This document shows positions 13,174 to 37,938 of a stretch of DNA of 64,000 nt, piece by piece. The position numbers were made by a program, and so were the translations under genes. Each line of letters opens with the position of its first letter. Position 1 is the stretch's first letter. This stretch comes from Lachnospiraceae bacterium (GTDB lineage: Bacteria > Bacillota > Clostridia > Lachnospirales > Lachnospiraceae), in the NCBI GenBank assembly GCA_021770755.1, contig JAETQI010000019.1, forward strand, positions 1 through 64,000, in the 5' to 3' direction. The notes beneath the pieces were generated by a model. The model had not been told where the DNA came from, ran no database searches, and saw nothing but the letters and a program-made list of their open reading frames with translations.

Positions 13174-13278
13174 TGTTAAGGAACTGTTCAGAAATAGACA
13201 AGTCAGGATGTACAGGTTATTTTGGAATATTTCCTAAGAATGCTGATCATGAAACAGAAGGAGGAAGGCAAAGGCAGG

Positions 13279-16924: not shown

Positions 16925-16973
16925 GAGATGTATGATTTGTGAACAATAAATTTTTTGTGGAGGAATATATTTG

Positions 16974-18050
16974 ATGAGAACTTATTTGGTGACTGGCGGT
17001 GCAGGTTTTATCGGGTCGAACTACATTCATTATATGTTTCGGAAATATGATAACGGGATCAGGATCATCAATGTGGATGCGCTGACCTATGCCGGAAATC
17101 TCGAGAATCTCAAAGAGATCGAGAAGAGGGACAACTACACGTTCATCAAGGCGGACATCACGGACAAGGAAGCGATCACAAAGATCTTTGCGGAGAATGA
17201 CATCGACAGGGTGGTGCATTTCGCGGCGGAGAGCCATGTGGACAGGAGCATCAGGGATCCGGAGGTCTTTGTGCGGACCAACGTGCTTGGCACGGCGGTG
17301 ATGCTCAACTGTGCCAAGGCGGCATGGGAGCTTTCGGACGGCAGCTTTCAGCCGGACAAGAAGTTCCTCCATGTTTCCACGGACGAGGTGTACGGCTCTC
17401 TCGAGGAGGACGGCGGATATTTCTATGAGACGACGCCGTATGCGCCGCACAGCCCGTACTCTGCGAGCAAGGCGTCATCGGACATGCTTGTGAGGTCGTA
17501 CATGGATACCTACCAGTTTCCGGCGAACATCACCAACTGTTCCAACAATTACGGCCCTTACCAGTTCCCGGAGAAATTTATCCCGCTGGTCATCAACAAT
17601 GCGCTGCAGGGAAAGAATCTCCCGGTGTACGGCGACGGTAAGAATGTGCGCGACTGGCTCTATGTCGAGGATCACGCAAAAGCGATCGACATGGTGCAGG
17701 AGAAGGGCAGGCTGTTTGAGACCTACAACATCGGCGGACACAATGAGAAGCAGAACATCGAGATCATCCATATCATACTCGAGACACTCCGGCAGCAGCT
17801 TGCGGACGATGATCCGAGGAAGAAACTGGTGTCGAAGGATCTGATCACGTATGTCGAGGACAGAAAAGGTCATGACAGGCGTTATGCGATCGCGCCGGAT
17901 AAGATCAAGGCGGAGATCGGCTGGGAGCCGGAGACGATGTTTCAGGAAGGGATCAGGCGGACGATCCGGTGGTACTTTGAGCATGAGGACTGGATGAAGA
18001 ATGCGACAAGCGGCGATTACCAGAAGTATTATGCGGAGATGTATCAGTGA
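16974..18050 (+). CDS. rmlB: dTDP-glucose 4,6-dehydratase
   Basis: A 358-residue extended SDR that converts dTDP-glucose to dTDP-4-keto-6-deoxyglucose, step two of dTDP-L-rhamnose synthesis. The NAD motif TGGAGFIGSNYIHY is at residues 7-20. HFAAESHVDRS near 83, STDEVYGSL near 128 with the catalytic Asp-Glu pair, and the YSASKASSD motif near 162 carrying the Tyr-x-x-x-Lys pair are all present. Length is normal for RmlB. The ATG at 16974 lies 10 bases after GGAGG. rmlA and rmlC follow, with a muramidase gene between them. Confidence 0.96.
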   Translation: MRTYLVTGGAGFIGSNYIHYMFRKYDNGIRIINVDALTYAGNLENLKEIEKRDNYTFIKADITDKEAITKIFAENDIDRVVHFAAESHVDRSIRDPEVFVRTNVLGTAVMLNCAKAAWELSDGSFQPDKKFLHVSTDEVYGSLEEDGGYFYETTPYAPHSPYSASKASSDMLVRSYMDTYQFPANITNCSNNYGPYQFPEKFIPLVINNALQGKNLPVYGDGKNVRDWLYVEDHAKAIDMVQEKGRLFETYNIGGHNEKQNIEIIHIILETLRQQLADDDPRKKLVSKDLITYVEDRKGHDRRYAIAPDKIKAEIGWEPETMFQEGIRRTIRWYFEHEDWMKNATSGDYQKYYAEMYQ

Positions 18051-18112: not shown

Positions 18113-18174
18113 ACTTTGACATAATGTGCAGGGGACAGAACCTGCGTGGAATGATGAAAAGGAGCAGACGATCA

Positions 18175-19044
18175 ATGAAAGGTATTATATTAGCAGGCGG
18201 CAGCGGCACAAGACTCTATCCACTGACAAAGGCGATCTCCAAGCAGATCATGCCTGTCTACGACAAGCCGATGATCTATTACCCGCTGTCGACACTGATG
18301 CTTGCGGGGATCAGGGATATCCTGATCATCTCGACGCCGCGCGATCTGCCGGTGTTTGAGGAATTGTTCGGCACGGGAGAACAGCTTGGACTGCGCATGG
18401 AATATGCAGTGCAGGAGCAGCCAAGGGGACTTGCGGATGCGTTCATCATCGGCGCTGATTTCATCGGAACGGATTCGGTGGCGCTGGTGCTTGGCGACAA
18501 CATTTTTTACGGACAGAGCTTTTCAAAGCTTCTGCAGCGTGTCGCGGCAAAAGAGAACGGCGCTACCATATTCGGATATTATGTGCGCGATCCGCGGGAG
18601 TACGGCGTAGTCGAGTTTGACAAGGACGGAAGGGCGATCTCCATCGAGGAGAAGCCGCAGAAGCCAAAGAGCAATTATGCAGTGCCGGGACTGTATTTTT
18701 ATGACAACGATGTCGTGGAGATCGCAAGGAACGTCAAGCCCTCCGCGAGAGGCGAGATCGAGATCACGAGCATCAACAACGAGTACCTCCGGCGCGGGAC
18801 GCTGGCAGTGGAGACGATGGGGCGCGGTTTTGCGTGGCTTGACACCGGAAACCATGATTCGCTGCTCGATGCCGCTGACTTTGTCTGCGCGTTTCAGAAG
18901 CGGCAGGGACTATACATCTCCTGCATCGAGGAGATCGCATATAAGAGAGGGTTCATCACAAGAGACCAGTTGCTCGAGCTTGCGGAGCCTTTGATGAAGA
19001 CGGATTACGGAAAGTATCTTGTAGAGGTTGCCAATGGACTCTAA
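18175..19044 (+). CDS. rmlA: Glucose-1-phosphate thymidylyltransferase
   Basis: A 289-residue nucleotidyltransferase making dTDP-glucose from glucose-1-phosphate and dTTP, the first step of dTDP-rhamnose synthesis. The signature [18 protein letters not shown] occupies residues 3-20, with [15 protein letters not shown] after it, LGDNIFYG near 108 and [13 protein letters not shown] near 159. Length matches the short RmlA class. The start at 18175 follows AAAAGGAG; an in-frame ATG further upstream would add a basic tail unlike RmlA. Its end overlaps the start of the next muramidase gene by 11 bases. Glucose-1-phosphate could come from the phosphoglucomutase at 31.8 kb. Confidence 0.96.
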
Positions 19045-20338
19045 GGGAAAGAAGATCGGAATACTGTTTTTGCTGTGCGCACTGCTCGCGGTCATGGCTG
19101 CGGTCGTGCTGGTGAATTACAACCGTTTCCAGGGAAAGGGCGCAAGCCCCGCCGCCAGCAGTACGGACAGCGGCCCTGAGATCATCGAAGCGGACGGAAA
19201 GGTGCACGGCGCGGATTTGTCGGCATTTCTAAAGGACAGTGATTTCTTTGACGCCGATGTGCCAAACAGCTCTAACCAGAATACATATGATGAGGTGGAT
19301 GAAAACGGGGATCCGGTGCGCAGTCTCACGATCTCGGCAAGCTCCGTGGAGCGCGACATCAGAGTGAAGGTCATGGATGACAAGGGATATGTGGTATCGG
19401 GACAGGAGTTTGCAGTCAAAGTGGCGGATACGGGCGTGTACGTCGACGAGGACAGGGACGGTGTCATACTGATCTCCGATATCAAGCCCGGGGAGTACAA
19501 GGTTTCGCTGGAGGAGCAGCAGGGCTTCAAGGTGCCGGCTTCCCCGGTCAGCGTCAGGGTGAAGTCGATCGTGTCCTACACGGTCATCGATGATATCGAT
19601 TTCTTTGTCCATGCGGAATCCGAGGTCGATATCTTAAAGGAGGACACCAAGGACAAGAAACTCGACAGCGAGGACGAGGATGATTCCCAGTACACGGCAC
19701 TGCTTGACATGGAGGATGACGAGCGCGCAAACGCGGTCAAGCTTGGCATTGACGTGTCGAAGTGGAACGGCGAGATCGACTGGGAGGTTGTGAAGGCGGA
19801 GGGCGTTGACTTTGCGATCATACGGTGCGGTTACAGGGGTTCCTCCTCGGGATGGCTGCTCGAGGATCCGTATTTTTATAAGAATCTGACGGGCGCGAAG
19901 AAGGCGGGCATCAAGGTGGGCCTGTATTTCTTCACGCAGGCGACGACTCTCGTGGAGGCGGTCGAGGAGGCGAGTATGGTGGTATCCCTGCTTGGCGATA
20001 CCAAGATCGAGTATCCGGTCTTTATCGACACGGAGGGCGCCGGCGGAAACGGAAGGGCGGACAACCTGGATCCGGGAACGAGGACGGCGGTGGTCAACGC
20101 GTTCTGCCAGACGATCCAGAACGCGGGGCTTGAGGCAGGCGTATATTCCGGCCGCAACTGGTTTTATAACAACCTTATCGTGGATGAGATGGAGGCACCG
20201 AATGTGTGGCTCGCAGAGTACAGGCAGACACCTCTGTATGAAGGACGGTACGACATGTGGCAGTACACGTCAAGCGGCAGTGTCGCCGGTATCGAGGGAA
20301 GAGTGGACTTAAATATCAGCTATCTGGGAATCGAGTGA
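19034..20338 (+). CDS. Second membrane-anchored GH25 muramidase
   Basis: A 434-residue protein with an N-terminal membrane anchor ([20 protein letters not shown] near residues 7-26), an SpaA/Ig-like domain near 100-190 ([18 protein letters not shown]), an acidic linker near 200-230 and a GH25 domain from about 237 to the end. GH25 motifs are [24 protein letters not shown] and the acidic FIDTEG. It resembles the C-terminal third of the protein at 13.3 kb and shares its Ig-like module, so the two look like paralogues. It overlaps rmlA, which implies that wall cleavage is made together with rhamnose supply. A TTG at 19028 is an alternative start. Confidence 0.9.
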
Positions 20339-20433: not shown

Positions 20434-21000
20434 ATGGGAAAGATTACAGTGGAGGAATGCACGGCGGATGGGGTGGTCATAGAGGGACTTAAGGTGATCA
20501 CGCCGCAGGTGTTTGGGGATAACAGAGGTTATTTTATGGAGACCTACAACTATAACGATTTTAAGGAAGCGGGCATCGACCATGTATTCGTGCAGGACAA
20601 CCAGTCGGCGTCGAAGAGGGGGGTCCTTCGGGGACTGCATTTTCAAAAACAGTATCCGCAGGATAAGCTCGTCCGCGCCGTGCGGGGAGAAGTGTATGAT
20701 GTGGCGGTGGATCTGCGGGAGGGATCGAGAACCTATGGAAAATGGTTTGGTGTTCTCCTGTCAGAAGAGAACAAGAAACAGTTTTTTGTTCCCAAGAATT
20801 TTGCCCATGGATTTCTTGTGCTGTCAGAGTATGCGGAGTTTTGTTACAAATGTACGGATTTCTATCATCCGAATGATGAGGGCGGGCTGCTGTGGAGCGA
20901 TCCTGATATCGGCATCGAGTGGCCGATCCCGGAAGGGATGGAGCTGATCTTTTCCGAGAAGGATCAGAAGTGGGGCGGAATAAAGGATTTTAGGCGATGA
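20434..21000 (+). CDS. rmlC: dTDP-4-dehydrorhamnose 3,5-epimerase
   Basis: A 188-residue cupin-type epimerase, third enzyme of dTDP-L-rhamnose synthesis. Visible motifs are FGDNRGYFMETYN near residues 27-39, QDNQSASKRGVLRGLHFQ near 56-73 with the catalytic histidine, VDLREGSRTYGKW near 93-105 and PKNFAHGFLVLSE near 119. Length matches the family. Its stop overlaps the start of the ABC permease (ATGA), tying rhamnose supply to polysaccharide export. No rmlD (final reductase) is found in the window. Confidence 0.95.
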   Translation: MGKITVEECTADGVVIEGLKVITPQVFGDNRGYFMETYNYNDFKEAGIDHVFVQDNQSASKRGVLRGLHFQKQYPQDKLVRAVRGEVYDVAVDLREGSRTYGKWFGVLLSEENKKQFFVPKNFAHGFLVLSEYAEFCYKCTDFYHPNDEGGLLWSDPDIGIEWPIPEGMELIFSEKDQKWGGIKDFRR

Positions 21001-21818
21001 GGAATAGTTTAGCAGGGTTGTGGCAGTCGAGACAGTTGATCTGGAAGCTGGCAAAAAATGACTTTAAAAACCGATTTGCAGGCTCATATCTCGGGCGCGT
21101 CTGGGCTTTTGCGCAGCCTGTCGTGACGGTGCTGCTGTACTGGTTTGTGTTTGGATATATCATGATGCCGGACAAGAAGGAGCTGCTCACGGCAGGGACG
21201 GAGGCACCCTATGTGCTGTGGCTGACGGCGGGGCTCGTGCCGTGGTTTTATTTCAGCGAGGCGGTCAGCAACGGGACGACATCCCTGCTCGAATACAGCT
21301 ATCTGGTGAAAAAGGTCGTATTTCAGATCCGCATTATTCCGGTGGTGAAGCTGATCGCGGCGTCTTTCATCCATATCTTCTTTGTGGCGTTTATGCTCGT
21401 ATTGTATGTGTGCTATGGTTATACGCCGGATCTGTATCTGCTGCAGCTACCCTATTTCAGTTTCTGCATGTTTATGTTTGTGCTGGCGCTGAGCTACACG
21501 ACCTGCGCGATCGCTGTCTTTTTCAGGGATCTGATGCAGATCGTCAATATCTTTCTGCAGGTAGGCATGTGGGCGACACCGATCCTGTGGAACATCAGAT
21601 TTCTGGACGGGAAGCCGCTGCTCCAGGGGATCATCAGGTGCAACCCGGTCTTTTACATTGTCAATGGTTACAGGGACGCCATGTTTGCCGATAGCTGGTT
21701 CTGGCAGGGATCCATGGGGGGCATGACGGTGTATTTCTGGATCGTCACCGCTGTCCTGTTCGCGGTGGGGACATTGATCTTTAAAAGGCTTAAAGTACAC
21801 TTTGCCGATGTGCTGTAG
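20997..21818 (+). CDS. Polysaccharide ABC exporter, membrane subunit (Wzm/TagG/RfbA-like)
   Basis: A 273-residue ABC-2 type permease with six predicted helices. The N-terminal amphipathic segment (LAKNDFKNRFAGSYLGRVWAF) and the later IPVVKLIAASFIHIFF and NPVFYIVNGYRDAMF motifs are typical of polysaccharide exporters such as Wzm and TagG. It starts inside the rmlC stop codon and is followed after 35 bases by the ATPase. Together they should move a finished lipid-linked polymer across the membrane. Confidence 0.93.
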   Translation: MRNSLAGLWQSRQLIWKLAKNDFKNRFAGSYLGRVWAFAQPVVTVLLYWFVFGYIMMPDKKELLTAGTEAPYVLWLTAGLVPWFYFSEAVSNGTTSLLEYSYLVKKVVFQIRIIPVVKLIAASFIHIFFVAFMLVLYVCYGYTPDLYLLQLPYFSFCMFMFVLALSYTTCAIAVFFRDLMQIVNIFLQVGMWATPILWNIRFLDGKPLLQGIIRCNPVFYIVNGYRDAMFADSWFWQGSMGGMTVYFWIVTAVLFAVGTLIFKRLKVHFADVL

Positions 21819-21853
21819 AGACGGCAAAGGATACTCAGGATACAGGGGGAACT

Positions 21854-23203
21854 ATGGAAGACAAACATCTGCAAACAGAACGAAGCGCTGCGTCTGCCGG
21901 GATCGCGATCGCGGTGGAGCATGTCAGCAAGGTATACAAACTCTATGACAGGCCGATGGACAGGCTCAAGGAAGCCCTGAAGCTGACCAGACAGCAGAAG
22001 TACCGCGAGGCGCATGCGCTGTCTGACATTTCTTTTGACGTGGGGCAGGGGGAGTGTGTCGGGATCATCGGGACAAACGGTTCCGGCAAATCGACGATCT
22101 TAAAGATCATAACAGGTGTTCTTAATCCCACGAGCGGAAACGTTGCTGTCAACGGGCGGATTTCTGCGCTGCTGGAGCTGGGCGCCGGTTTTAACATGGA
22201 ATACACGGGGATCGAGAACATCTATCTCAACGGCACGATGAACGGCTTTTCCAACGAGGAGATCGACGCGAGGATGCAGGATATCCTGGACTTTGCAGAT
22301 ATCGGGGATTATGTCCGTCAGCCGGTGAAGACGTACTCGAGCGGTATGTTTGTGCGTCTTGCCTTCTCGGTGGCGATCAACATCGATCCGGAGATCCTGA
22401 TCGTCGACGAGGCGCTTTCCGTCGGAGATGTGTTCTTCCAGGCAAAGTGCTACCACAAGTTTGAGGAATTCAAAAAAATGGGCAAGACGATCATGATCGT
22501 GAGTCACGATCTGAGCAGTATCGCGAAATACTGCGACAGGGTGATCCTGCTCAATCAGGGCGTGAAGCTCGGCGAGGGCTCCCCCAAAGCGATGATCGAT
22601 GACTATAAGCGCGTTCTGGTGGGTCAGTACGAGCTTCCGGCGTCAAAGAAGGAGCAGAATCTTCTAAACGATGCGCAGATACAGGAGGCGGTTCAGACGC
22701 GTGCCGCCGCACAGAGGCGGGCGAGAGAGCGGACAGACGGGAGCGGGCAGGAGTCAAAGACGCTGGAGTACGGGACACAGGAGGCAGTGATCGAGGAGAT
22801 CTATCTGACAGACGACCGCGGGACGAGGACGAACTCGATCTTAAAGGGGCTTCCGTTCAATATATATATGAAGGTCAGGTTTTACCAGGATCTGCCGGCG
22901 CCGATCTTTGCCTTTTCGTTCAAGACGGCAAAGGGCACGGAGATCACAGGAACCAATACGATGTTTGAGAAGGCGTTTTTGGAGCCGGTGCAGTCCGGTG
23001 ACACGAAAGAGGTCTGTTTTACACAGAAGATGTCGCTGCAGGGCGGCGAGTATCTGCTCTCGTTTGGTGTGACAGGGTACGAGGGCGATGATTTCAAGGT
23101 GTATCACCGGCTCTATGACGCGCTCGATGTGACAGTCGTGTCTGACAAGAATACGGTGGGATATTACGACATGGATTCGGCCATATCTGTCAGAAGTGTG
23201 TAG
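21854..23203 (+). CDS. Polysaccharide ABC exporter, ATPase with Wzt-like C-terminal domain
   Basis: A 449-residue ATPase. The nucleotide-binding domain (residues 15-260) has Walker A GTNGSGKST near 75, the signature YSSGMFVRLAFSVAI near 159 and Walker B ILIVDEALSVGD near 180. A linker with charged and alanine-rich sequence follows, then a domain of about 150 residues from 295 onward that begins AVIEEIYLTDD. It resembles the Wzt C-terminal domain that recognises the capped end of the polymer in O9a-type O-antigen export. Simple TagH-type ATPases lack a Wzt-type domain. Its presence next to the methyltransferase-kinase protein supports export of a capped polymer. Confidence 0.92.
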   Translation: MEDKHLQTERSAASAGIAIAVEHVSKVYKLYDRPMDRLKEALKLTRQQKYREAHALSDISFDVGQGECVGIIGTNGSGKSTILKIITGVLNPTSGNVAVNGRISALLELGAGFNMEYTGIENIYLNGTMNGFSNEEIDARMQDILDFADIGDYVRQPVKTYSSGMFVRLAFSVAINIDPEILIVDEALSVGDVFFQAKCYHKFEEFKKMGKTIMIVSHDLSSIAKYCDRVILLNQGVKLGEGSPKAMIDDYKRVLVGQYELPASKKEQNLLNDAQIQEAVQTRAAAQRRARERTDGSGQESKTLEYGTQEAVIEEIYLTDDRGTRTNSILKGLPFNIYMKVRFYQDLPAPIFAFSFKTAKGTEITGTNTMFEKAFLEPVQSGDTKEVCFTQKMSLQGGEYLLSFGVTGYEGDDFKVYHRLYDALDVTVVSDKNTVGYYDMDSAISVRSV

Positions 23204-23248
23204 GCGGTTGATAAAAAGAAATAGAAGAATAGCGGGGTGAAGATCAGC

Positions 23249-25348
23249 ATGGCGGAAGAGACACAGGTGAAGCAGGAGAAGATCGGCAGTGTCACGATGG
23301 ATTACACATATTATACAGGGAAGGATCTGTACACGGATGGCGATATAGAGAACAAGATGCTCGACATAGCCATGTACAATCCACCGGAGGATTTTCCAAA
23401 GATCATTGAGGCGGAGAGGAGCTGGCCGGTCTTTTATCATTTCTCGCCGCTTCGGACGAATATCATAGACTGGATTCCGTTCAAGAAAACAGACAAGGTG
23501 CTTGAGATCGGATCAGGGTGCGGCGCGATCTCGGGTGCGCTCGCAAGGCGGGCGGGCAGTGTCACCTGCATCGACCTGTCAAAGAAGCGCAGTATGGTCA
23601 ATGCATACCGCAACCGCAATGAGGACAACATCACGATCATGGTCGGCAACTTCAAGGATATCGAGCCGCATCTCGACGAGGATTATGATTATGTGCTGCT
23701 GATCGGCGTCTTTGAGTACGGGCAGGCATATATCGGCGGCGAGAATCCCTACGAGGATTTTCTGCGGATCTGCGACCGCCACAGAAAGCTGGACGGGCGT
23801 CTGGTCATTGCGATCGAAAATAAGTTTGGATTAAAATACTGGGCAGGCTGCCGCGAGGATCATCTGGGAACGTATTTTTCCGGGCTGGAGGGTTATCATG
23901 AGGGCGGCACTGCGCGGACCTTTACGCGTCATGGTCTGGAAAAGCTGCTTGATAAGGCGGGGATCCACGAATATTCCTTTTACTATCCATATCCTGATTA
24001 CAAATTTGTGACGACGATCTATTCTGACCAATATCTTCCGAAAAAAGGTGAACTTAGCAACAATTTGAGAAATTTTGACCGGGAGAGGGTTCTGCTGTTC
24101 GACGAGAAGCAGGTGTTTGACGAGATCATAGAGGAGAAGGAGTTTCCGCTCTTCTCCAATTCTTATCTGCTGGTGGTCGGCGGTGCGCCGAACGTGATCT
24201 ATACGAAGTTTTCCAATGACAGGGTCGCCAAGTGGGCGATCCGCACGGCGATCGTCAGGGAGGCTCCCGGGCATGTGCATGTGGAGAAGCTGCCGGACAC
24301 TGAGGCGGCGTGCAGGCATCTTGCGAACACGAAGCAGGCATGCGAGCAGCTCTCTGCGCGGTACGAGAATACGAAGATCAACATCAACCAGTGCAGCGTC
24401 ATCGGCGATGATATCAAAAACGGCCTGTCCTTTGAATACTGCCGGGGGGAGACGCTGGAGAATCTGCTCGACGAGTGCCTGATGCGGACGGATGTGGCGG
24501 GCTTCAAGGCGCTGATCCAGGAATACATGCACTGGATCCACTACAACGAGGACACTTATACAGTCAGCAATTTTGACTTTATCTTTCCCAATATCCTTGT
24601 TGACGGGAAGCGGTGGCACGTCATCGACTATGAGTGGACCTTTGACAGACACATCGCGGCGAGAGATATCGCATTCCGTGCTTTTTACAACTACACGCTG
24701 GGCGGTGAGATGCGAAAAGCGTGCGAGGATCTTCTGATGAAGGACATCCTGGGATTTACGGACGATGAGATCAGGGCCGCGATCGCGGAGGAAAAAGAAT
24801 TTCAGTTGCGCATAACGGGAAGCCGCGCCTCGGCGGGACGCATGCGGGAGCTGATCGGAAACAGGGCGTACGGGCTTGAGGGAATGTTAAAGTACTGTCA
24901 TCACGCGGATATCAAGTATATCACGCAGATCTTTGTGGATTATGGCGAGGGCTTCACCGAGGAAAATTCCGTGAGGCTGCGGGACTGTTTTTCGGTCGGC
25001 AGGTATCTGAAACTTGAGTATGATATCCCGGATCAGGCTGTCAGGATCCGGATCGATCCGTGTACGTATCCGTGCCTGGTGGATATCCGCGAGATCAGGG
25101 CGGGGGAGCGGATCTACACGCCGGATGTCATCGAGGTGAACGGAAAATGGCAGGAGTGCGGCTCCATCGTGTTTGACAATGAGGATCCCAATATGGCGAT
25201 CGATGTCGTTGGCGGGAGTCATCTCACAGTGGATCTGGATGTGCTGGAGCTGACGCCGGCGTTTGCCAGCCAGATCGTGCAGAGCGCGGTGAAAGAGAGT
25301 TTTGTCACAAAGACAAAGGGGTTTCTTAAGACAAAGTTGAGAGGGTAG
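23249..25348 (+). CDS. Fused methyltransferase and kinase-like protein (WbdD-like)
   Basis: A 699-residue protein. Residues about 60-260 form a class I SAM methyltransferase with motif I VLEIGSGCGAISGALARR near 85-102 and DYDYVLLIGVFEYG near 145-158. Residues about 310-490 look like a protein-kinase fold: a lysine in HVEKLP, a catalytic-loop equivalent SNFDFIFPNILV (Asp, four residues, Asn) near 438-449 and a metal-loop equivalent VIDYEWTFD near 458. A further beta-rich region fills 570-690. The order methyltransferase-kinase matches WbdD, which caps the O9a polymer with methyl phosphate and sets chain length. The function here is inferred from that and from the exporter upstream. ATG 23249 follows GGGGTGA; GTG 23237 is an alternative. 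Confidence 0.8.
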   Translation: MAEETQVKQEKIGSVTMDYTYYTGKDLYTDGDIENKMLDIAMYNPPEDFPKIIEAERSWPVFYHFSPLRTNIIDWIPFKKTDKVLEIGSGCGAISGALARRAGSVTCIDLSKKRSMVNAYRNRNEDNITIMVGNFKDIEPHLDEDYDYVLLIGVFEYGQAYIGGENPYEDFLRICDRHRKLDGRLVIAIENKFGLKYWAGCREDHLGTYFSGLEGYHEGGTARTFTRHGLEKLLDKAGIHEYSFYYPYPDYKFVTTIYSDQYLPKKGELSNNLRNFDRERVLLFDEKQVFDEIIEEKEFPLFSNSYLLVVGGAPNVIYTKFSNDRVAKWAIRTAIVREAPGHVHVEKLPDTEAACRHLANTKQACEQLSARYENTKININQCSVIGDDIKNGLSFEYCRGETLENLLDECLMRTDVAGFKALIQEYMHWIHYNEDTYTVSNFDFIFPNILVDGKRWHVIDYEWTFDRHIAARDIAFRAFYNYTLGGEMRKACEDLLMKDILGFTDDEIRAAIAEEKEFQLRITGSRASAGRMRELIGNRAYGLEGMLKYCHHADIKYITQIFVDYGEGFTEENSVRLRDCFSVGRYLKLEYDIPDQAVRIRIDPCTYPCLVDIREIRAGERIYTPDVIEVNGKWQECGSIVFDNEDPNMAIDVVGGSHLTVDLDVLELTPAFASQIVQSAVKESFVTKTKGFLKTKLRG

Positions 25349-25384: not shown

Positions 25385-27472
25385 ATGTTAGGAAAGATAA
25401 AGGATGCCATACAGGGCAGATTATATAAAAAATGTATAGAGGAGTACGAGAGGGCGCTGCGCTGCCAGACAGACCCGTATCTGCTGTGGATCAGGGAGAA
25501 CGAGCAGACGGATGGGGCGGAGCCGCCGGAGGGGCAGCGGGTGCTGTTTGATATCGTGTACATGCAGGATTGCGGCAGGGATTTCTCCCTGGCAGGCTTT
25601 GACAAGGAGTACATCCTGTTCGTGTCCGAGGAGGGCAGGATCGCCGCGGATGTATATCATGAGATCCCGCAGTATTTTGAGAAGCATAAGGATGTGAATA
25701 TCATCTATGCAGATGAGGACGCGTGGATGCTCGGGGCGAAAAAGGAGATGGATAAGGATCTGGTCAACGATGAGAGCGCGCACCGCATTTTTCCGTGGAC
25801 CAAACCGATGTGGTCGCCGGACACGCTGTTTTCCTTTCTGTATTTTGGCAATATTTTTGCAGTCCGCAGGGAGGCATATCTGGGGCTGGAATGGCTTGGA
25901 GATGCCGATTACCGCAAGAATATATATGATTTCGTGCTCAAGGCGACAGAGCATGGCAAGCGGCCGGGTCATATAGAGAAGATCCTGTTTCACGCCTATG
26001 AGAAGGGCAACAGCAGGGCGGAGATCGAGGACAGGCTCATGCACAGGACGGATCTGATCGGTGTGGGAAAAGCGTATGATTTCATCCGAGAGCGCGCACT
26101 TGCAAGGCGCGGCCTGAGAGGGCAGATGGTCGTGGATCCGCGGACAGGGATCTCCTATCCGGTGTATGAACTGACAGGCAAGCCGCTTGTCAGCATCATC
26201 ATCCCGTCAAAGGACAACCCGGATGTGCTCAAGCAGTGCATCCGCTCGGTGTATGCGCATACGGACTACCCGAATCTTGAGATCATTGTCGTCGATAACG
26301 GGAGCACGGCGAGGGTGCGTGTCGGGCTGGAGAATTTCAGGCAGGAATGCCCGTTCACATACCTGTATGTGCCGATGGAATTCAATTTTTCCAGCATGTG
26401 CAACATCGGCGTGCAGGAGTCAAAGGGTGCGTATATCGTGCTGCTGAACGATGACATGGAAGTGATCGAGGATACGTGGCTGACCAGGATGGTCGGTCAG
26501 GCTTCCCTAAAACATGTCGGAGCGGTCGGCGCAAAGCTTCTGTACCCGGACTCGACGAAGATACAGCATGCCGGGATCAATAATACGCTCTACGGGCCCG
26601 GGCATAAGCTCAAGAAGATGGATGACAGCGAGTCCTATTATTATGGAAGAAACCGCTTTGTGTACGATTTGATCGGTGTCACCGCGGCGTGTCTGGTGAT
26701 GCGCAGGAGCTATTATCTGGCGATCGGCGGACTGTTTGAGGGGCTGGCGGTGGCATACAACGATGTGGATCTGTGTTTCCGGCTGTGCAGCAAGGGGCTG
26801 TACAATGTCCAGAGGAACGATGTCGTGCTGTATCACCATGAATCGCTCAGCCGCGGGGACGACCTCCAGGATGAGGCGAAGCTAAAGCGCCTGCTGGCGG
26901 AGAAGGATATCCTGTATAAGCGGCATCCGAAGTTTTACAGGAAGGATCCGTTTATCGGGACGCTCCTAAACAGCGGGGAGCCGGAGTATAGCTGCCGCTG
27001 GCTCGAGCGGTATGAGCTTGTTAACATATTTGACTCTGACGACATGCTTGCCGAATCCAAGAAACTGCCCTCGCTGGAAAGCATGAATCAGGCGATCATG
27101 GTCACAGTGGAGGACTGCGGCAGGGAGAACTTTGCAAAGGCTGTGACCAGAAACGGTCAGAAGAAAAAGACATACTATCTCATCAAGGGCTGGGCGTACG
27201 TGCCGGGTGTGGACAATGCGCGCTACCGGTTTAAGATCCTTCTCGTAAACAGCAGCGGCAAAGTGTGGGAGCTGCCGGTTCAGAGACGCTATCGCAAGGA
27301 TGTGGCGGCGATCCTGCCGGATGAGACGAATGTGGAGCTGACAGGCTTCTGCAACTGGATCTTTGAGGGGGCGCTGCCGGCAGACACGTATGAGCTGTGG
27401 ATGACCGCAAAGGACGGCTGTTCCAGACAACGGCTGTACCGGAGCATGGAGAAGACGTTGACGATTGAATAA
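25385..27472 (+). CDS. Large GT2 glycosyltransferase, paralogue 1
   Basis: A 695-residue cytoplasmic protein. Residues 1-250 form an N-terminal domain with IIYADEDAWML and SPDTLFSFLYFGNIFAVRRE that resembles a partial GT-A fold. A full GT2 domain follows from about 268 to 480, with VSIIIPSKDNPDVLKQCI, IIVVDNGST, LLNDDMEV and GAKLLYPDSTKIQHAG. The donor-site region contains YNDVDLCFRL and HHESLSRGDD. A C-terminal domain of about 130 residues ends the protein. It is a paralogue of the next two genes. RgpF/Rfb-type rhamnosyltransferases are plausible relatives, since dTDP-rhamnose genes lie close by, but the sugar is unproven. Confidence 0.88.
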   Translation: MLGKIKDAIQGRLYKKCIEEYERALRCQTDPYLLWIRENEQTDGAEPPEGQRVLFDIVYMQDCGRDFSLAGFDKEYILFVSEEGRIAADVYHEIPQYFEKHKDVNIIYADEDAWMLGAKKEMDKDLVNDESAHRIFPWTKPMWSPDTLFSFLYFGNIFAVRREAYLGLEWLGDADYRKNIYDFVLKATEHGKRPGHIEKILFHAYEKGNSRAEIEDRLMHRTDLIGVGKAYDFIRERALARRGLRGQMVVDPRTGISYPVYELTGKPLVSIIIPSKDNPDVLKQCIRSVYAHTDYPNLEIIVVDNGSTARVRVGLENFRQECPFTYLYVPMEFNFSSMCNIGVQESKGAYIVLLNDDMEVIEDTWLTRMVGQASLKHVGAVGAKLLYPDSTKIQHAGINNTLYGPGHKLKKMDDSESYYYGRNRFVYDLIGVTAACLVMRRSYYLAIGGLFEGLAVAYNDVDLCFRLCSKGLYNVQRNDVVLYHHESLSRGDDLQDEAKLKRLLAEKDILYKRHPKFYRKDPFIGTLLNSGEPEYSCRWLERYELVNIFDSDDMLAESKKLPSLESMNQAIMVTVEDCGRENFAKAVTRNGQKKKTYYLIKGWAYVPGVDNARYRFKILLVNSSGKVWELPVQRRYRKDVAAILPDETNVELTGFCNWIFEGALPADTYELWMTAKDGCSRQRLYRSMEKTLTIE

Positions 27473-29618
27473 AAAGATAATGAAAATGAACGGATATGAA
27501 CAGGAACTTTTTGCACAAAGGACACCATACCTGCAGTGGCTGAAACGACAGGATGCAGCGCTGGACATGCGGTATGGGCAGCATCTGAAGCAGGGCGCTT
27601 TAGGGAAGCAGATACACACGCTTCCCTTTTCTTCGTGTATGGACAATATACAGATCCCCGGGGAGCTGCGTGACGACGGGATCGGCCTGTTTGTAAGGGA
27701 AGGCGGCGCACTGTCCCGATACGCGCAGGCGGTGTTTTCGGATACATTTCTGGCGTCCCCGGATGTAGTCCTGGCATATGCGGATGAGGATTACAGGGGG
27801 AGCCTTGGGGAACTGTACGGGATCGGAGGAGCAACAGGCGCGGAAGAAACCGTGGGAGCGCCCTGGTTTAAACCTGATTTCTCGCCGGATACGCTTGCGT
27901 CCTTTTTCTATATCGGCAGCGTGTTCGCCGTCAGGGGCAGTCAGATCCTGGAAACGGCAGAAAGGTATGGGAGCGATATCAGCATTTACGAGATGGTCTG
28001 CAGGATCTTTATGGAAGCGATCGGGACAGACGGGATCGTCCATATACCGAAGGTATTGTACACGAATGACCGTCTGGCAGATACGGAAAAGATCGAAAGC
28101 TCGGATAAGATCCGGTCCTTGTATGAGGCAGGCTGCGGGAGGCAGGCTGCGGGCGCGGGGTGCGATAAGGTATCGATTGTTATTCCGAGTAAGGATCACG
28201 CGGAGGTATTGTGCAAGTGCCTGGAAACGCTGGTGCTGTACACGGATTACAGTTGTTATGAAATCATTGTTGTGGACAATGGCAGCAGCCCGGAACAGAA
28301 GATGTGCATAACACGCATGATCGAGGCGCTGCGGCGTGATAAGCCCGGTCTGTCAGTGCGGTATCTGTATCGGGAGAGCGCGTTTAATTTCTCTGCAATG
28401 TGCAATGCGGGCGCGCGGCTGGCAGAGGGGGAGCATCTGCTGTTTCTGAACGATGATATCGAGATCATGGACACCACAGACGGCAGGCAGTGGCTTGACA
28501 GGATGCTGGTCTATGGCAGGAAGTCTCATGTGGGCGCGGTCGGTGCAAAGCTGTATTATCCTGCCGGAGAAGAAAAAAACGCGTGTTATAAGATCCAGCA
28601 TGCAGGGATCACCAACATGGGGATCGGTCCGGCGCACAAGCTGTGCGGCATGGCGGACGAGGGGTGCCTGTACCATGGACACAACACGCAAAACTATGAT
28701 ATGATCGCGGTCACTGCGGCGTGTATGCTGATCCGCAAGCACCTGTTTGACAGCGCGGGCGGTTTTGACGAAAATTTTCCGGTAGCGTACAATGATGTGG
28801 AGCTATGCTTTCGGCTGTATCAGCAGGGATATTTCAATGTGCAGGTCAATGAGGCGGTGCTGATTCACCATGAATCCCTCAGCAGGGGACAGGACACTTC
28901 CCCGGAAAAGAGGCGGCGCCTGTCGGCGGAGCGGGAGAAGCTCTACCGGAAATATCCGTCACTGAATGCGAGGGATCCCTTTTACAGCCCCAATCTCGTA
29001 CAGTGGAAGCGGGATGCGCAATATAACACAGGATATTTATATGCCTTTGACCGACAGGCGCAACCCGTGCCGCCTGAAAACAGCCGGGTATTGTTCAGAA
29101 AGGCGGATATCAGGAACCTGCTGCATGCAAAATGCGCACCGGCGGCAAAGCTGTACGACTGCCTGACCGGGTATCATGACCTGATGCTGCATATTGATAA
29201 CATTTGTTATGGCGATGGCATACCCGAGGAAGAAAAAGCCGATAATAACGATAATAAAAGGATCGGCGGCAATATTATGATCGAGGGCTGGTGCGCGGTC
29301 AGGAATGCCGACAACGCGGGGCTGTCCCGGAAACTATGGCTCATTGACGGGGGGCAGGATCACAAAAACGTATATGCGTTTGATATCGCGCCGAAGCTGA
29401 GGGAGGACGTCGCGGCGCTGCTGGAACAGGACAGCAGGAGCAGAACGAGAAATACGGCGCTCTCAGGCATACAGGTGAACATTGCAGGGTGCGTTTTAAA
29501 GCCGGGAACATACAGCGTCGGCGTGGTCTGCGGGAATAAACTGATCTGTGATCCGCAAAAGTATGTCGTCGTACCGGATGAGGAGACCGGTCAGGGTACT
29601 AAAGAAAAGGGACTGTGA
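27465..29618 (+). CDS. Large GT2 glycosyltransferase, paralogue 2
   Basis: A 717-residue protein with the same layout as the preceding gene: an N-terminal region with YADEDYRGS and SPDTLASFFYIGSVFAVRG, a GT2 domain from about 230 to 460 (VSIVIPSKDHAEVLCKCL, IIVVDNGSS, FLNDDIEI, GAKLYYPAG, YNDVELCFRL, HHESLSRGQD), and a C-terminal region with an INNER-type beta domain from about 560 on. The TTG at 27465 lies 12 bases after GGAGA and overlaps the previous stop by eight bases; ATG at 27480 or 27486 are alternatives. Tandem duplication followed by divergence is likely. The two enzymes probably add different linkages in one repeat unit. Confidence 0.86.
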   Translation: MNKKIMKMNGYEQELFAQRTPYLQWLKRQDAALDMRYGQHLKQGALGKQIHTLPFSSCMDNIQIPGELRDDGIGLFVREGGALSRYAQAVFSDTFLASPDVVLAYADEDYRGSLGELYGIGGATGAEETVGAPWFKPDFSPDTLASFFYIGSVFAVRGSQILETAERYGSDISIYEMVCRIFMEAIGTDGIVHIPKVLYTNDRLADTEKIESSDKIRSLYEAGCGRQAAGAGCDKVSIVIPSKDHAEVLCKCLETLVLYTDYSCYEIIVVDNGSSPEQKMCITRMIEALRRDKPGLSVRYLYRESAFNFSAMCNAGARLAEGEHLLFLNDDIEIMDTTDGRQWLDRMLVYGRKSHVGAVGAKLYYPAGEEKNACYKIQHAGITNMGIGPAHKLCGMADEGCLYHGHNTQNYDMIAVTAACMLIRKHLFDSAGGFDENFPVAYNDVELCFRLYQQGYFNVQVNEAVLIHHESLSRGQDTSPEKRRRLSAEREKLYRKYPSLNARDPFYSPNLVQWKRDAQYNTGYLYAFDRQAQPVPPENSRVLFRKADIRNLLHAKCAPAAKLYDCLTGYHDLMLHIDNICYGDGIPEEEKADNNDNKRIGGNIMIEGWCAVRNADNAGLSRKLWLIDGGQDHKNVYAFDIAPKLREDVAALLEQDSRSRTRNTALSGIQVNIAGCVLKPGTYSVGVVCGNKLICDPQKYVVVPDEETGQGTKEKGL

Positions 29619-29636: not shown

Positions 29637-31661
29637 ATGATGGCAAATGATAATAACCAGAATCAGAATAAAGAAGAGCGGGATGCGCAATTCTATAGAC
29701 AGGCGTACGAGAAGGAGAAGGCGCGCGCAGCTTCCCTTGCGGGCAGGCTTGCGGATGCCAGGAACGAGGCGGACAGCCTGCAGTTCCAACTGGACCGCAT
29801 CAAGAACAATCCGCTGTGGAAGGCGTCAAAGCCCCTGCGCCAGACAATGCACTGGGGGATCAGAAACTACAGGCGCCTCAGGAATCTGGGCGGGCCAAAG
29901 GGGATCGTCCGGAAACTGCAGCAGAAGAGGATCGAGGCGGAGGCAAAAAAGCTCCACGGCACAGCGAGCTTTCCCACGCCGGAGGAGGCACAGCGGCAGC
30001 GGGACGCGAAGTTTGACCGCATGGTGAAGATCAGCATCCTGGTGCCCTTGTGGAACAATCAGCGGGAATTCCAGATCCAGATGATCGAGTCCGTGATGAA
30101 CCAGACCTATCAGAACTGGGAGCTGTGTCTGGCGGACGGTTCCGACGAGGAGCATGGTTATATCGGAGAGATCTGCAGGGAGTACGCCGCGCGCGCGGAG
30201 GGCAGGATCGTCTACCGCAAGCTCGACAGGAACGGAGGAATCTCCGGAAATACCAACGAGTGCCTGAAACTCGCGACGGGCGAGTACATCGGTCTGTTTG
30301 ACCAGGATGATATCCTGCATCCGGGTGCCTTGTATGAGTATGTGAAAGTGATCAACGAGGAGGGCGCGGATTATATATACTGTGACGAGACGACGTTCAA
30401 GGGGGACAGCATCGACAATATGATCACGCTGCACTTCAAACCGGACTTTGCGCCAGACAATCTCAGGGCAAACAATTACATCTGTCATTTCAGCGTGTTC
30501 TCGCGGAAACTGCTGGAGGGGACAGAACTGTTCCGCAGCGGTTTTGACGGCAGCCAGGATCACGATATGATCCTGCGGCTGACCGCCAGGGCAAAGAAGG
30601 TCGTACATGTGCCGAAGCTTCTGTACTACTGGCGTTCCCACAAGGCGAGCACGGCGAGCGATATCAGCGCCAAACCCTACGCGATCGCCGCGGCGAAGGG
30701 TGCCGTGGCGGATCACCTGACCAGGTGCGGCTTCAAGAACTTTGAGATCAAGAGCACCAGGGCGTTTGACACGATCTTTGAGATCAAATACGAGATCAAG
30801 AGCGAGGACAGGATCTCGATCCTGATCCCGAATAAGGATCATGCGGAGGATCTGCGGCGCTGTATCGATTCGATCAGGGAGCGCAGCACGTACGGGAATT
30901 ACGAGATCATCGTCATCGAGAATAACAGCGCGGACAGGGAGATCTTTGCCTATTATGACACGCTGAAAAAGCAAAAAAATATAACAGTAGTTACTTATCC
31001 GGGCGAGGCAGAGGGAGACTTTAATTATGCGAAGATCAACAACTTTGGTGCGCGCTATGCGACAGGGAAATATCTGCTGTTATTGAATAACGATACGCAG
31101 GTGATCTCCATGAACTGGCTGGAGGCGATGCTGATGTATGCGCAGCGCCCCGACGTGGGAGCAGTCGGCGCAAAGCTCTACTACGGCGACCGCACGATAC
31201 AGCACGCCGGCGTGGTGATCGGGCTTGGGGCGCACCGGACAGCGGGACATACGCACTACAAGATCAACTATGACAACCTCGGATACATGGGGAGGCTCTG
31301 TTATGCGCAGAACGTCTCGGCGGTGACGGGCGCCTGCCTGATGGTCAGAAAGAGCATCTACGACGCGCTCGGCGGGCTGGACGAGATGTTTGCGGTGGCG
31401 CTCAACGACGTGGATTTCTGTCTGCGCATCCGGAAGAACGGCTATCTGAACGTGTTCACGCCGTTTGCCGAGCTGTATCATTTCGAGTCGGCGTCGCGCG
31501 GCAGCGATGTCAGGGACGAGAAGAAGGCGGAGCGCTACGAGGCGGAGTCCGAGCTGTTCCGCGAGCGCTGGAAAGCGCTGCTGGCAAAAGGGGATCCCTA
31601 CTACAACCCGAATTTTTCACTCGACCGCAGCGATTATTCGCTGAAAACGGATCGAGATTAA
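29637..31661 (+). CDS. Two-domain GT2 glycosyltransferase with N-terminal coiled coil, paralogue 3
   Basis: A 674-residue protein. Residues 15-65 are a charged heptad-like helix likely to form a coiled coil. Two GT2 domains follow: the first near 130-330 (ISILVPLWNNQREFQIQMI, LADGSDEE, LFDQDDILHPGAL), the second near 390-620 (ISILIPNKDHAEDLRRCI, VIENNSAD, LLNNDTQVI, GAKLYYGDRTIQHAG, LNDVDFCLRI). Both domains keep their acidic metal motif, so the enzyme may be bifunctional and add two sugars in turn. It completes a run of three related enzymes after the exporter. A tail of NPNFSLDRSDYS ends the protein, as in other Rgp-like transferases. Confidence 0.88.
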   Translation: MMANDNNQNQNKEERDAQFYRQAYEKEKARAASLAGRLADARNEADSLQFQLDRIKNNPLWKASKPLRQTMHWGIRNYRRLRNLGGPKGIVRKLQQKRIEAEAKKLHGTASFPTPEEAQRQRDAKFDRMVKISILVPLWNNQREFQIQMIESVMNQTYQNWELCLADGSDEEHGYIGEICREYAARAEGRIVYRKLDRNGGISGNTNECLKLATGEYIGLFDQDDILHPGALYEYVKVINEEGADYIYCDETTFKGDSIDNMITLHFKPDFAPDNLRANNYICHFSVFSRKLLEGTELFRSGFDGSQDHDMILRLTARAKKVVHVPKLLYYWRSHKASTASDISAKPYAIAAAKGAVADHLTRCGFKNFEIKSTRAFDTIFEIKYEIKSEDRISILIPNKDHAEDLRRCIDSIRERSTYGNYEIIVIENNSADREIFAYYDTLKKQKNITVVTYPGEAEGDFNYAKINNFGARYATGKYLLLLNNDTQVISMNWLEAMLMYAQRPDVGAVGAKLYYGDRTIQHAGVVIGLGAHRTAGHTHYKINYDNLGYMGRLCYAQNVSAVTGACLMVRKSIYDALGGLDEMFAVALNDVDFCLRIRKNGYLNVFTPFAELYHFESASRGSDVRDEKKAERYEAESELFRERWKALLAKGDPYYNPNFSLDRSDYSLKTDRD

Positions 31662-31777: not shown

Positions 31778-33505
31778 ATGGGTTTTATGGATGAATTTAA
31801 TTTCTGGCTGAGTGATGATTACTTTGACCAGGCAACAAAGGATGAGCTCTTAAAGATCAAGGATAATGAGAGCGAGATCGAGGAGCGCTTTTACAAGGAG
31901 CTTGAGTTTGGTACTGGCGGACTTCGGGGTGTGATCGGTGCCGGCACGAACCGCATGAACATCTACACTGTGAGAAAGGCATCGCAGGGACTGGCAAACT
32001 ATATCATCAAGGCAGGCGGACAGGAGAAAGGGATCGCGATCGCTTACGATTCGCGTTTCATGTCGCCGGAGTTTGCCGATGAGGCGGCGCTGTGCATGGC
32101 GGCAAACGGGATCAAGGCGTATGTGTTCGAGTCGCTCAGACCGACACCGGAGCTTTCCTTTGCGCTGAGAACGCTTGGCTGCATCTCCGGTATCGTGATC
32201 ACGGCAAGCCATAATCCGCCGGAGTACAACGGCTATAAAGTATACTGGGAGGACGGTGCACAGATCACGGCGCCCAAGGACAAGGACATCATCGGCGAGG
32301 TAAAGGCTGTGACAGACTACCACACGGTGAAGACGATGGACAAGCAGGAAGCCATCAATGCAGGGCTGTATCAGGTGATCGGCGAGGAGATCGACGATGC
32401 GTACATGGCAGAGCTCAAGAAACAGATCATCCATCCGGACGTCATCAAGGCGGTTGCGGACGATATCCGGATCGTGTACACACCGCTGTGCGGGACAGGT
32501 AACAAGCCGGTGAGAAGGATCCTCTCCGAGCTTGGATTTAAGAATGTATATGTCGTTCCCGAGCAGGAGAATCCCGATCCGAAGTTCACGACACTGGATT
32601 ATCCGAATCCCGAGGATCCCAAGGCGTTTACATATGCCTTGAAGCTCGCAAAGGAAAAGAACGCGGATATCGTGCTCGCGACGGATCCGGATGCGGACAG
32701 ACTTGGCATCTACGCGCTGGATACGAAGAGCGGGGAGTACAAGGCGTTCACAGGCAATATGTCCGGTATGCTGATCGCAGAGTATATCTTGAGGGAGCGC
32801 AAGGCGACAGGCACGATGCCGGAGAATCCTGCGCTTGTCACAACGATCGTGACGACAAACATGACGGCTCCGATCACGCAGGCATACGGCGTGAAACTGA
32901 TCGAGGTGCTCACAGGATTCAAGTTTATCGGCGAGCAGATCAAGCTGTTTGAGCAGACCGGCTCCAACAACTATGTATTTGGCCTTGAGGAGAGCTATGG
33001 CTGCCTTGCGGGAACACACGCGAGGGACAAGGACGCTGTCGTGGCTGTGATGTGTCTGTGCGAGGTTGCCGCATGGTGCAAGAAGAACGGCATGACACTG
33101 TACGACATGATGCTCGAGCTCTATGAGAAGTACGGCTACTACAAGGAGACACAGTATGCGATCACGATGAAGGGCATCGACGGCTCGAAGCAGATCGCGG
33201 CGCTGATGGATAAGTTCAGGAACAATCCGCCAAGGAAGTTTGGCGAGCTTGATGTGGTGCGCGTGAGAGATTATGAGAACGACGTCGTCACAGAACTGGA
33301 GTCCGGCAAGACCTATCCGACAGGGCTGCCGAAGTCAAACGTGCTCTACTTTGACCTGACGAACGATTCATGGTGCTGTGCAAGACCTTCCGGCACAGAG
33401 CCCAAGATCAAGTTCTACATGGGTGTCAAGGGAACGAGCCTTGAGGATGCGCAGAAGAAGGTAGAAGACCTGACAAACGAAGTCAAGGCTGTTATAGAAG
33501 AATAG
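31778..33505 (+). CDS. Alpha-phosphoglucomutase/phosphomannomutase
   Basis: A 575-residue phosphohexomutase that interconverts glucose-6-phosphate and glucose-1-phosphate (or the mannose forms). The phosphoserine loop TASHNPPEYNGYK lies near residues 143-155, the metal loop DPDADRLG near 304-311, the sugar-binding GLEESYG near 407 and the phosphate-binding RPSGTEPKIKFY near 533. Length is that of the Bacillus PgcA type rather than the shorter GlmM. Its product feeds RmlA and other nucleotide-sugar enzymes of this locus. It is followed by a clear terminator. Confidence 0.95.
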   Translation: MGFMDEFNFWLSDDYFDQATKDELLKIKDNESEIEERFYKELEFGTGGLRGVIGAGTNRMNIYTVRKASQGLANYIIKAGGQEKGIAIAYDSRFMSPEFADEAALCMAANGIKAYVFESLRPTPELSFALRTLGCISGIVITASHNPPEYNGYKVYWEDGAQITAPKDKDIIGEVKAVTDYHTVKTMDKQEAINAGLYQVIGEEIDDAYMAELKKQIIHPDVIKAVADDIRIVYTPLCGTGNKPVRRILSELGFKNVYVVPEQENPDPKFTTLDYPNPEDPKAFTYALKLAKEKNADIVLATDPDADRLGIYALDTKSGEYKAFTGNMSGMLIAEYILRERKATGTMPENPALVTTIVTTNMTAPITQAYGVKLIEVLTGFKFIGEQIKLFEQTGSNNYVFGLEESYGCLAGTHARDKDAVVAVMCLCEVAAWCKKNGMTLYDMMLELYEKYGYYKETQYAITMKGIDGSKQIAALMDKFRNNPPRKFGELDVVRVRDYENDVVTELESGKTYPTGLPKSNVLYFDLTNDSWCCARPSGTEPKIKFYMGVKGTSLEDAQKKVEDLTNEVKAVIEE

Positions 33506-36519: not shown

Positions 36520-37938
36520 GTGAGAAAATTGATAAGAGATAATCAGAAGTATTTTAACACACTGCTGGTTCTGCTCGATGCACTGGTTATAACAGCCGCT
36601 TACTGGCTTTCATGGTTTTTGTGGCTCAGCGGATTGGTGAAGGAGAACGATCCCGGTACAGGTATCCTGTCGGTGCAGGTCTATCTGATCGCTTTTCTGG
36701 CGATCGTACCGGAATATCTGATCCTATACAATTCGTTTGACCTGTATTCATCAAAACGTACTGCGAAGACGGTCTATGAGATCTTCAATATCATAAAGGC
36801 AAATACGATCGGCCTGCTGGCAGTCATGGTAGTGCTCTTTGCCATCAATATACCAGATTTCTCACGCGGGATGGTGGGTGTGTTCTATGGGATCAACATT
36901 GTGGCGGAATCCCTGATGCGCAAAACGGTCCGGTACGGACTGCGCAGGATGCGCAAAAAAGGCTACAATGTCAAGCATATTCTGTTAGTGGGGTACTCGC
37001 GCGCAGGCGAGGAGTACATCAGCAAGATCAAGGCAAATCCCGAATGGGGGTATGAAGTCTGCGGTATCCTTGACGACCATGTTCCGATCGGAGCCGTATA
37101 TAAGGGGGTTAAAGTGACAGGGGAGATCGATTCCCTGCGCGCGATCCTGGCGGAGAATCATCTGGATGAGATCGGCATCACACTTTCCCTGTCAGACTAT
37201 GACAGACTGGAAAACATCGTGAATACCTGTGAGAAAACAGGTGTGCACACAAAGTTCATACCGGACTATAACAGCGTGATACCGAGCAGGCCGTATCTTG
37301 AGGATCTGGACGGGCTTGCAGTGGTCAATATCAGGAGAGTGCCGTTAAATAACATGGCAAATATGCTGCTTAAGCGGATCGTGGATATCGTCGGGGCACT
37401 GATCGCGATCGTGCTGGCGTCCCCGTTCATGCTGGCGGCAGCGATCGGGGTGAAGGTGACGAGCAGGGGGCCGCTGATCTTCAAACAGGAGCGGGTAGGG
37501 CTTCACAACAAGCCCTTTCAGATGTATAAATTCCGGAGCATGGAGGTCCAGAACGATGCCGATGAGAAAAAGGGCTGGACGACCAAGAATGATCCGAGAG
37601 TCACAAAAGTGGGAAGGATACTTCGAAGTACGAGTATTGATGAGCTCCCACAGCTTTTTAATGTGTTAAAAGGGGACATGAGCCTGATCGGGCCGCGTCC
37701 GGAGCGACCTCTTTTCGTTGAGAAATTTAAAGAGGAAATACCAAGGTATATGATAAAGCACCAGGTCCGGCCGGGCATCACCGGCTGGGCGCAGGTAAAC
37801 GGATACAGGGGCGACACCTCGATCAAAAAGCGGATCGAGTACGATCTCTACTATATTGAAAACTGGTCGATGGGATTTGACTTCAAGATCTTATTCCTAA
37901 CCTTTTTCAAGGGCTTTATCAACAAAAATGCCTATTAG
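36520..37938 (+). CDS. Polyprenyl glycosylphosphotransferase (WcaJ-like), second copy
   Basis: A 472-residue initiating transferase. It has four N-terminal helices (residues 15-130), a CoA-binding-like domain (145-265), a helix near 290-310 and the catalytic domain with [52 protein letters not shown] and [12 protein letters not shown]. It transfers a sugar-1-phosphate to undecaprenyl phosphate. The likely start is GTG 36520; TTG 36529, six bases after AAGGGTG, is a serious alternative. It sits upstream of the LCP gene. The two WcaJ-like enzymes in the window are divergent from each other, so they probably start two different polymers. Confidence 0.92.

Follow-up and report, generated by a model that had tools for sequence, protein, structure and literature searches.

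A 64,000-nucleotide stretch of DNA from a Lachnospiraceae bacterium (assembly GCA_021770755.1, contig JAETQI010000019.1, positions 1 to 64,000), the window in what follows, carries a polysaccharide operon in which one gene encodes a 699-residue protein with three parts: a methyltransferase, a kinase-like domain, and a C-terminal beta domain. The gene directly follows wzm and wzt, which encode the permease and ATPase of an ATP-binding cassette (ABC) exporter. The best reading, one that we consider probable, is that this locus makes a methyl-phosphate-capped, ABC-exported, probably wall-linked polymer. Capping and cap reading are favored because of three observations: the predicted kinase fold, a true Wzt_C domain in the exporter ATPase, and tight genomic coupling between the two.

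The proposed mechanism runs as follows. A polymer, probably containing rhamnose, would be built in the cytoplasm on a lipid carrier by family 2 glycosyltransferases. The kinase domain would phosphorylate the non-reducing terminal sugar; the methyltransferase domain would then methylate the terminal phosphate, and growth would stop. Holding the glycan is probably the role of the C-terminal beta domain. Wzt_C would bind the methyl-phosphate end, so that Wzm and Wzt export finished chains only, and a LytR-CpsA-Psr (LCP) protein would then probably attach these chains to peptidoglycan. What the analysis establishes is the genes and their domains, the predicted folds, the conservation of catalytic residues, the family-wide coupling to one type of Wzt_C, and homology to an O7-type protein; substrate, cap chemistry, cap reading, and wall attachment are inferred from these.

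Domains and fold of the candidate terminator

A sequence-only reading of the window had described a methyltransferase in the first part of the 699-residue protein, followed by an Asp-x4-Asn loop and a metal-loop residue. All of these are present. Pfam, searched up to E 0.1, returns methyltransferase families only (Methyltransf_11 at E 6e-9), all in the first part, and leaves the kinase and beta regions unmatched. A second conserved block begins near residue 314 and contains K347, a catalytic loop (D443-x4-N448), and a metal loop (D460-x-E462-W463). All 30 aligned sequences, namely the window protein and 29 hand-chosen relatives, retain these six residues (K347, D443, N448, D460, E462, and W463) unchanged; six of the relatives are kinase open reading frames (ORFs) without a methyltransferase. 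Because of this invariance in the chosen set, the motif is not a matter of chance.

The same residues bear on an alternative: an O-methyl-only cap, with a kinase-like domain that has no activity or serves a structural role. A methyl-only cap has been described in a Gram-positive organism, at least in the part of the source available (PMC2943079), and the family includes methyltransferase-only versions. A dead domain, however, would be expected to lose K347, D443, N448, and D460; their retention in every aligned sequence, the six methyltransferase-free kinase ORFs included, makes this alternative improbable.

Models support a kinase fold for the middle region, a point that the sequence-only reading had left to a fold-level check. 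AlphaFold2 modeled the whole chain from 25 sequences at a mean pLDDT (predicted local distance difference test) of 81.0 and a pTM (predicted template modeling score) of 0.70, and the C-terminal 373-residue piece from 24 sequences at a mean pLDDT of 82.4 and a pTM of 0.56. In a Foldseek search with the whole model, crystal structures of WbdD take ranks 2, 3, 4, 5, and 8 (E 3e-9 to 3e-8; 537-602 columns). With the kinase half, the top matches are RIO1, macrolide phosphotransferases (Mph), PRPK, and JAK kinases (best E 8.5e-6). Sequence methods reach less far: a phmmer search of PDB sequences with the kinase part gave no match up to E 10, and profiles gave weak matches to JAK1 and GCN2 (best kinase E 0.0017 and 0.0078).

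Coupling to one type of Wzt_C

The sequence-only reading had placed an exporter permease and an ATPase with an extra C-terminal domain beside this gene. Both are borne out, with PF01061, PF00005, and PF14524 all over cut-off, and the C-terminal domain of the ATPase is plainly Wzt_C (PF14524 E 4.3e-41; 140.7 bits against a cut-off of 30.4). It is the sole PF14524 match at E 0.001 across its own draft genome. The best solved chains for this Wzt, 8dku and 7k2t, span residues 19-256.

Coupling was counted across 149 other genomes of the family. Presence of the protein was taken as E below 1e-11 and a strong Wzt_C as E below 1e-38, a cut set after seeing the list; E-values were entered as exponents. 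The count left out the window's own genome, the six weakest matches to Wzt_C (E values from 2.4e-7 upward), and extra protein pieces in genomes already listed. The protein occurs in 76 genomes, a strong Wzt_C in 75, and both in 74. The gene lies within 8 kb on the same strand at 72 of the 75 strong Wzt_C places, and within 700 bases at 65 (median gap 90), versus 3 of the 31 weaker places. Chance pairing with the exporter is ruled out by this difference. Two of the three near weaker places (G016 and G096) match the beta domain alone and encode methyltransferase-only proteins; the third (G023), a true relative, narrowly misses the strong cut. Among the exceptional or weak places, L102 is normal, L103 stops at a contig edge, and the stretches fetched for L101 and L104 contain no complete Wzt_C gene.

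In a set of 25 loci selected for similarity to the protein, all 25 have wzt, or the end of wzt, directly ahead of the gene. The nearest named relatives, from uncultured Lachnospiraceae, are 86% identical. A phylum-wide draw of 398 genomes contains at least 98 with a match at E 0.001 and, besides the window's own genome, at least 12 at E 1e-11 or better, three of these from the same family; at most two candidates were scored per genome, and these counts are lower bounds.

A modular family

Seventeen loci, chosen mostly for unusual reading frames and hence not random, reveal how the parts are joined. A wzt with the C domain is present in all 17. The methyltransferase ORF is separate from the kinase in eight; kinase and glycosyltransferase share one ORF in seven; and the kinase was not detected in one (L059). 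At L017:2428-5079, a single ORF encodes kinase, beta domain, and glycosyltransferase family 2 domains.

This arrangement speaks to the idea that the kinase targets a protein or small molecule and is merely located near the exporter. The top Foldseek matches of the kinase half are indeed protein kinases and macrolide phosphotransferases. The shared ORFs with glycosyltransferases, together with the nearly constant Wzt_C pairing, argue the other way, and we regard this idea as very improbable.

The weaker Wzt_C genes were sampled as well. Of the 28 such loci at which the protein is not nearby, ten were selected, with 12-13 kb fetched for each; phmmer found in them no match to the window methyltransferase, kinase, or beta domain. 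In four of the ten, the gene beside wzt has a different methyltransferase domain (one gene was scanned per locus). A profile comparison covered two of these four (L098 and L099, the others being L090 and L093) together with two further methyltransferase-only proteins near weaker Wzt_C genes (L105 and L106). It detects the beta domain after the methyltransferase in each: E 1.1e-9, 1e-6, 6.2e-10, and 1.1e-8, respectively. L098, L105, and L106 all end, as judged by eye, in a similar STSWK-x-TKP-x-R motif. Because methyltransferase-only proteins carry it too, the beta domain looks like a shared part of terminators. The kinase, in turn, looks like a module that can be present or absent and whose presence would turn a methyl cap into a methyl-phosphate cap.

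Phosphate and methyl groups might instead be added along the chain or on a side branch, as decoration. In favor of this, the protein occurs in one genome together with a Wzt that lacks Wzt_C. Decoration does not readily account for the coupling of one Wzt_C type at 72 of 75 places, or for methyltransferase-only proteins with the same beta domain adjoining wzt near weaker Wzt_C genes; on this evidence it is unlikely.

Relation to WbdD and to the O7 terminator

The sequence-only reading had called the protein WbdD-like. The WbdD sequence used for comparison is the gene between wzt and wbdA of Escherichia coli HS, in which Pfam recognizes a methyltransferase and a kinase. A profile of the kinase and C-terminal regions finds no match in it (hhalign probability 0.02 and 0.3), and the methyltransferase core has a weak likeness (probability 38). 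Membership of the 699-residue protein in the WbdD family is thus ruled out by sequence. The proposed logic fares better, with a kinase fold, a true Wzt_C, and tight coupling, and WbdD still offers a parallel, both in its fold and in that logic.

As far as can be tested, the nearest characterized enzyme appears to be ORF6-N of Klebsiella pneumoniae O7. The available text on that system (PMC11231755) gives the layout of ORF6-O7 as a methyltransferase, a 223-residue unannotated kinase, an immunoglobulin-like domain, a coiled coil, and two glycosyltransferases. The protein places methylphosphate on position 3 of the rhamnose that ends the chain, and its D441A variant is inactive; an immunoglobulin-like domain of this kind, according to the same text, had not been identified in other terminators (PMC11231755). 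The connection to the window protein runs through residue numbers, architecture, and a bridging relative, L075: a 1457-residue Pseudomonas asturiensis plasmid protein encoded next to wzm and wzt and ending in glycosyltransferase domains. The full-length profile of the window family matches L075 across all three domains (probability 100, E 4.6e-46, 628 columns). The kinase and beta part alone also matches (probability 96.5, E 8.4e-10), as does a narrower profile (probability 82, E 1.1e-5). L075 in turn carries Y28, Y66, G91, G93, E112, and Y158 at the printed ORF6-O7 numbers, with its catalytic Asp at 443 versus 441: six of seven numbers exact, and the seventh off by two. To the extent that it can be tested, then, the 699-residue protein would work like WbdD and belong with the O7-type terminators.

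A second relative, from a Citrobacter braakii plasmid (L074), lies in a cluster ordered rfbB, A, C, D, transposase, wzm, wzt, terminator, and glycosyltransferases. Its terminator is 42.7% identical to L075 over query residues 4-550, and its methyltransferase is 35% identical to that of the window protein over 244 positions. The plasmid is typed as conjugative, and the rhamnose, wzm, wzt, terminator, and glycosyltransferase cluster (L074:7222-20853) sits among insertion sequences; it is possibly a mobile surface-polysaccharide locus.

Points that count against a methyl-phosphate-capped polymer with a matched cap reader are several. One genome (G076; L100:3488-4288 and 8475-10427) encodes a methyltransferase-kinase at a distance of about 4 kb from a Wzt whose length leaves no room for Wzt_C; this locus offers a natural test of the need for a cap reader. 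The ORF6-O7 link is an indirect one, by way of residue numbers, architecture, and a bridging relative; the window kinase matches the C. braakii terminator weakly (probability 17 and 0.4), and the position of D460 is Glu in that terminator. Model confidence is low at residues 198-221, 539-554, and 682-699, with pTM at the values given above; whole-chain TM-scores to WbdD are low (0.19-0.31 in Foldseek); and WbdD is absent from the best 50 Foldseek matches for the kinase half.

A crude heptad scan adds a further point: it finds no coiled coil in the 699-residue protein, a silence that is merely suggestive, for the scan also misses L024, L074, L075, and L106. It flags residues 559-602 of E. coli HS WbdD, four of seven other kinase-bearing family proteins scanned, the tails of the methyltransferase-only L098 and L105, and an N-terminal coiled-coil-like stretch (residues 22-56) in the third glycosyltransferase of the window operon.

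The operon

The operon order is rfbB, rfbA, a GH25 gene, rfbC, wzm, wzt, the 699-residue protein gene, and three family 2 glycosyltransferase genes; then come a phosphomutase, GtrA, two further glycosyltransferases, and finally an initiating sugar phosphotransferase and the LCP protein (Table 1). An alternative GTG start at 23237 would lengthen the 699-residue protein to 703 residues. Loci L061, L070, and L073 likewise have genes for an initiating transferase and an LCP protein near the kinase gene.

The sequence-only reading had taken the polymer to contain rhamnose. Three dTDP-rhamnose genes (rmlB, rmlA, and rmlC) lie in the operon, all over cut-off, and an rmlD-type reductase for the final step lies on another contig (TIGR01214, 284.2 bits; cut-off 224.05). 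Rhamnose in the polymer is plausible on this basis.

Two GH25 (lysozyme-type) proteins are encoded nearby: one inside the rhamnose operon (19028-20338) and one upstream (13222-16893). Of 19 loci that reach that area, from the set picked by likeness to the 699-residue protein, 17 have the inner gene between rfbA and rfbC. The upstream protein has a tandem acidic repeat (13400-13850, by eye) followed by Ig-like and choline-binding-repeat domains. A role for these proteins in polymer attachment or release is possible.

Table 1. Features of the window, with methyltransferase-only relatives from other loci in the last row
Feature	Position	Strand	Evidence
rfbB, dTDP-glucose 4,6-dehydratase	16971..18050	+	TIGR01181, 482.7 bits (cut-off 365.1)
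rfbA, glucose-1-phosphate thymidylyltransferase	18124..19044	+	TIGR01207, 495.8 bits (cut-off 360.65)
rfbC, dTDP-4-dehydrorhamnose 3,5-epimerase	20434..21000	+	TIGR01221, 252.6 bits (cut-off 155.75)
Wzm, polysaccharide exporter ABC-2 permease	20997..21818	+	PF01061 E 8.7e-18
Wzt, exporter ATPase	21854..23203	+	ABC_tran (PF00005) residues 56-188; Wzt_C (PF14524) residues 304-440
Wzt_C domain, candidate cap reader	22763..23173	+	PF14524 E 1.7e-41 (genome-wide search)
Methyltransferase-kinase-beta-domain protein, 699 residues, candidate glycan terminator	23249..25348	+	
Methyltransferase part, residues 1-310	23249..24178	+	Methyltransf_11 residues 85-187, E 6e-9
Kinase domain, about residues 314-540, with K347, D443, N448, D460	24188..24868	+	Invariant residues and Foldseek
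C-terminal beta domain, about residues 559-667	24923..25249	+	Model strands; common to O7-like L075
Glycosyltransferase family 2 (first)	25385..27472	+	PF00535 E 1.6e-20
Glycosyltransferase family 2 (second)	27465..29618	+	PF00535 E 1.5e-11
Glycosyltransferase family 2 (third), two-domain	29637..31661	+	PF00535 E 1.3e-41, two stretches
Phosphoglucomutase/phosphomannomutase	31778..33505	+	PF02878 E 9.7e-43
Initiating sugar phosphotransferase	36520..37938	+	PF02397 E 1.4e-73
LCP protein, candidate wall ligase	37993..39564	+	PF03816 E 6.3e-32
Methyltransferase-only proteins near weaker Wzt_C	L098:5327-6640, L099:4152-7631, L105:1700-3100, L106:2082-3368		

Significance

The idea of cap-dependent export in a Gram-positive bacterium has precedents. 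The accessible text of one paper proposes, for Geobacillus, a 2-O-methyl cap and its reading by Wzt, from a Wzm/Wzt locus (PMC2943079), and the WbdD paper, in the portion available, mentions Gram-positive parallels (PMC3482155). The sequence-only reading had held such a system to be new or little studied in a Firmicute. That is half right: it was too broad for methyl-capped Wzm/Wzt glycans, but no methyl-phosphate terminator in a Firmicute appeared among the matches listed in searches of open-licence papers. The methyl-phosphate stop-and-export signal has so far been demonstrated in Gram-negative bacteria. The surprise lies elsewhere: in breadth (about half of the sampled family), in a kinase and a beta domain unmatched by Pfam, and in the modular swap.

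If the reading is true, methyl-phosphate cap-controlled export extends from Gram-negative O antigens to a large gut family. In that family, immune recognition and phage binding may be influenced by the ends of rhamnose polymers. Two domains unmatched by any Pfam model, the kinase and the beta domain, provide a sequence handle for predicting cap chemistry from genomes, and the split and fused enzymes form a natural series for studying how termination, polymerization, and export are joined.

A larger picture can be drawn, in which we place somewhat less than even confidence. About half of the Lachnospiraceae may make a wall-linked glycan with a methyl-phosphate end and a matched, Wzt_C-gated export. 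Presence or absence of a kinase between the methyltransferase and a shared glycan-binding beta domain would separate methyl-phosphate from methyl branches. In the branch to which the window belongs, the terminator would contain no ruler, and chain length might instead be determined by the coiled coil at the head of the third glycosyltransferase.

Comparison with known systems

E. coli O9a WbdD resembles the window protein in combining a methyltransferase and a kinase, in its place beside wzm and wzt in the same order, and in fold. It differs in that the kinase and beta domain have no detectable sequence relation to it, and WbdD (HS) has a coiled-coil-like stretch. The kinase-bearing proteins and their methyltransferase-only relatives, with a common beta domain, parallel E. 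coli O8 and O9a.

ORF6-O7 shares with the window protein the order methyltransferase, kinase, and beta or Ig-like domain, and its catalytic Asp 441 corresponds to D443; its "CBM" occupies the place of the window beta domain. The O7 system likewise has rhamnose at the chain end of an ABC-exported polymer, according to the text available (PMC11231755). ORF6-O7, however, extends into a coiled coil and two glycosyltransferases, whereas in the window protein the beta domain is followed only by a basic tail, modeled with low confidence. An LCP protein is encoded in the window locus; in the O7 system the polymer is destined for lipopolysaccharide.

Three further systems are each alike in part. Geobacillus stearothermophilus WsaE comes, like the window, from a Gram-positive Wzm/Wzt locus, and there the capping of a rhamnan falls to a methyltransferase domain that is fused to glycosyltransferases; it differs in that the cap is 2-O-methyl, the available part of the source mentions no kinase, and the glycan goes to S-layer protein (PMC2943079). 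Aquifex aeolicus Wzt has a C-terminal domain that reads the chain end, although its cap is 3-O-methyl and, again in the part of the source at hand, no kinase is mentioned (PMC9445017). Finally, the glucorhamnan of Ruminococcus gnavus is a Lachnospiraceae rhamnose polymer that, in the accessible text, appears joined by a phosphodiester to muramic acid (PMC12413058), and so is apparently linked to the wall, as is probable for the polymer of the window.

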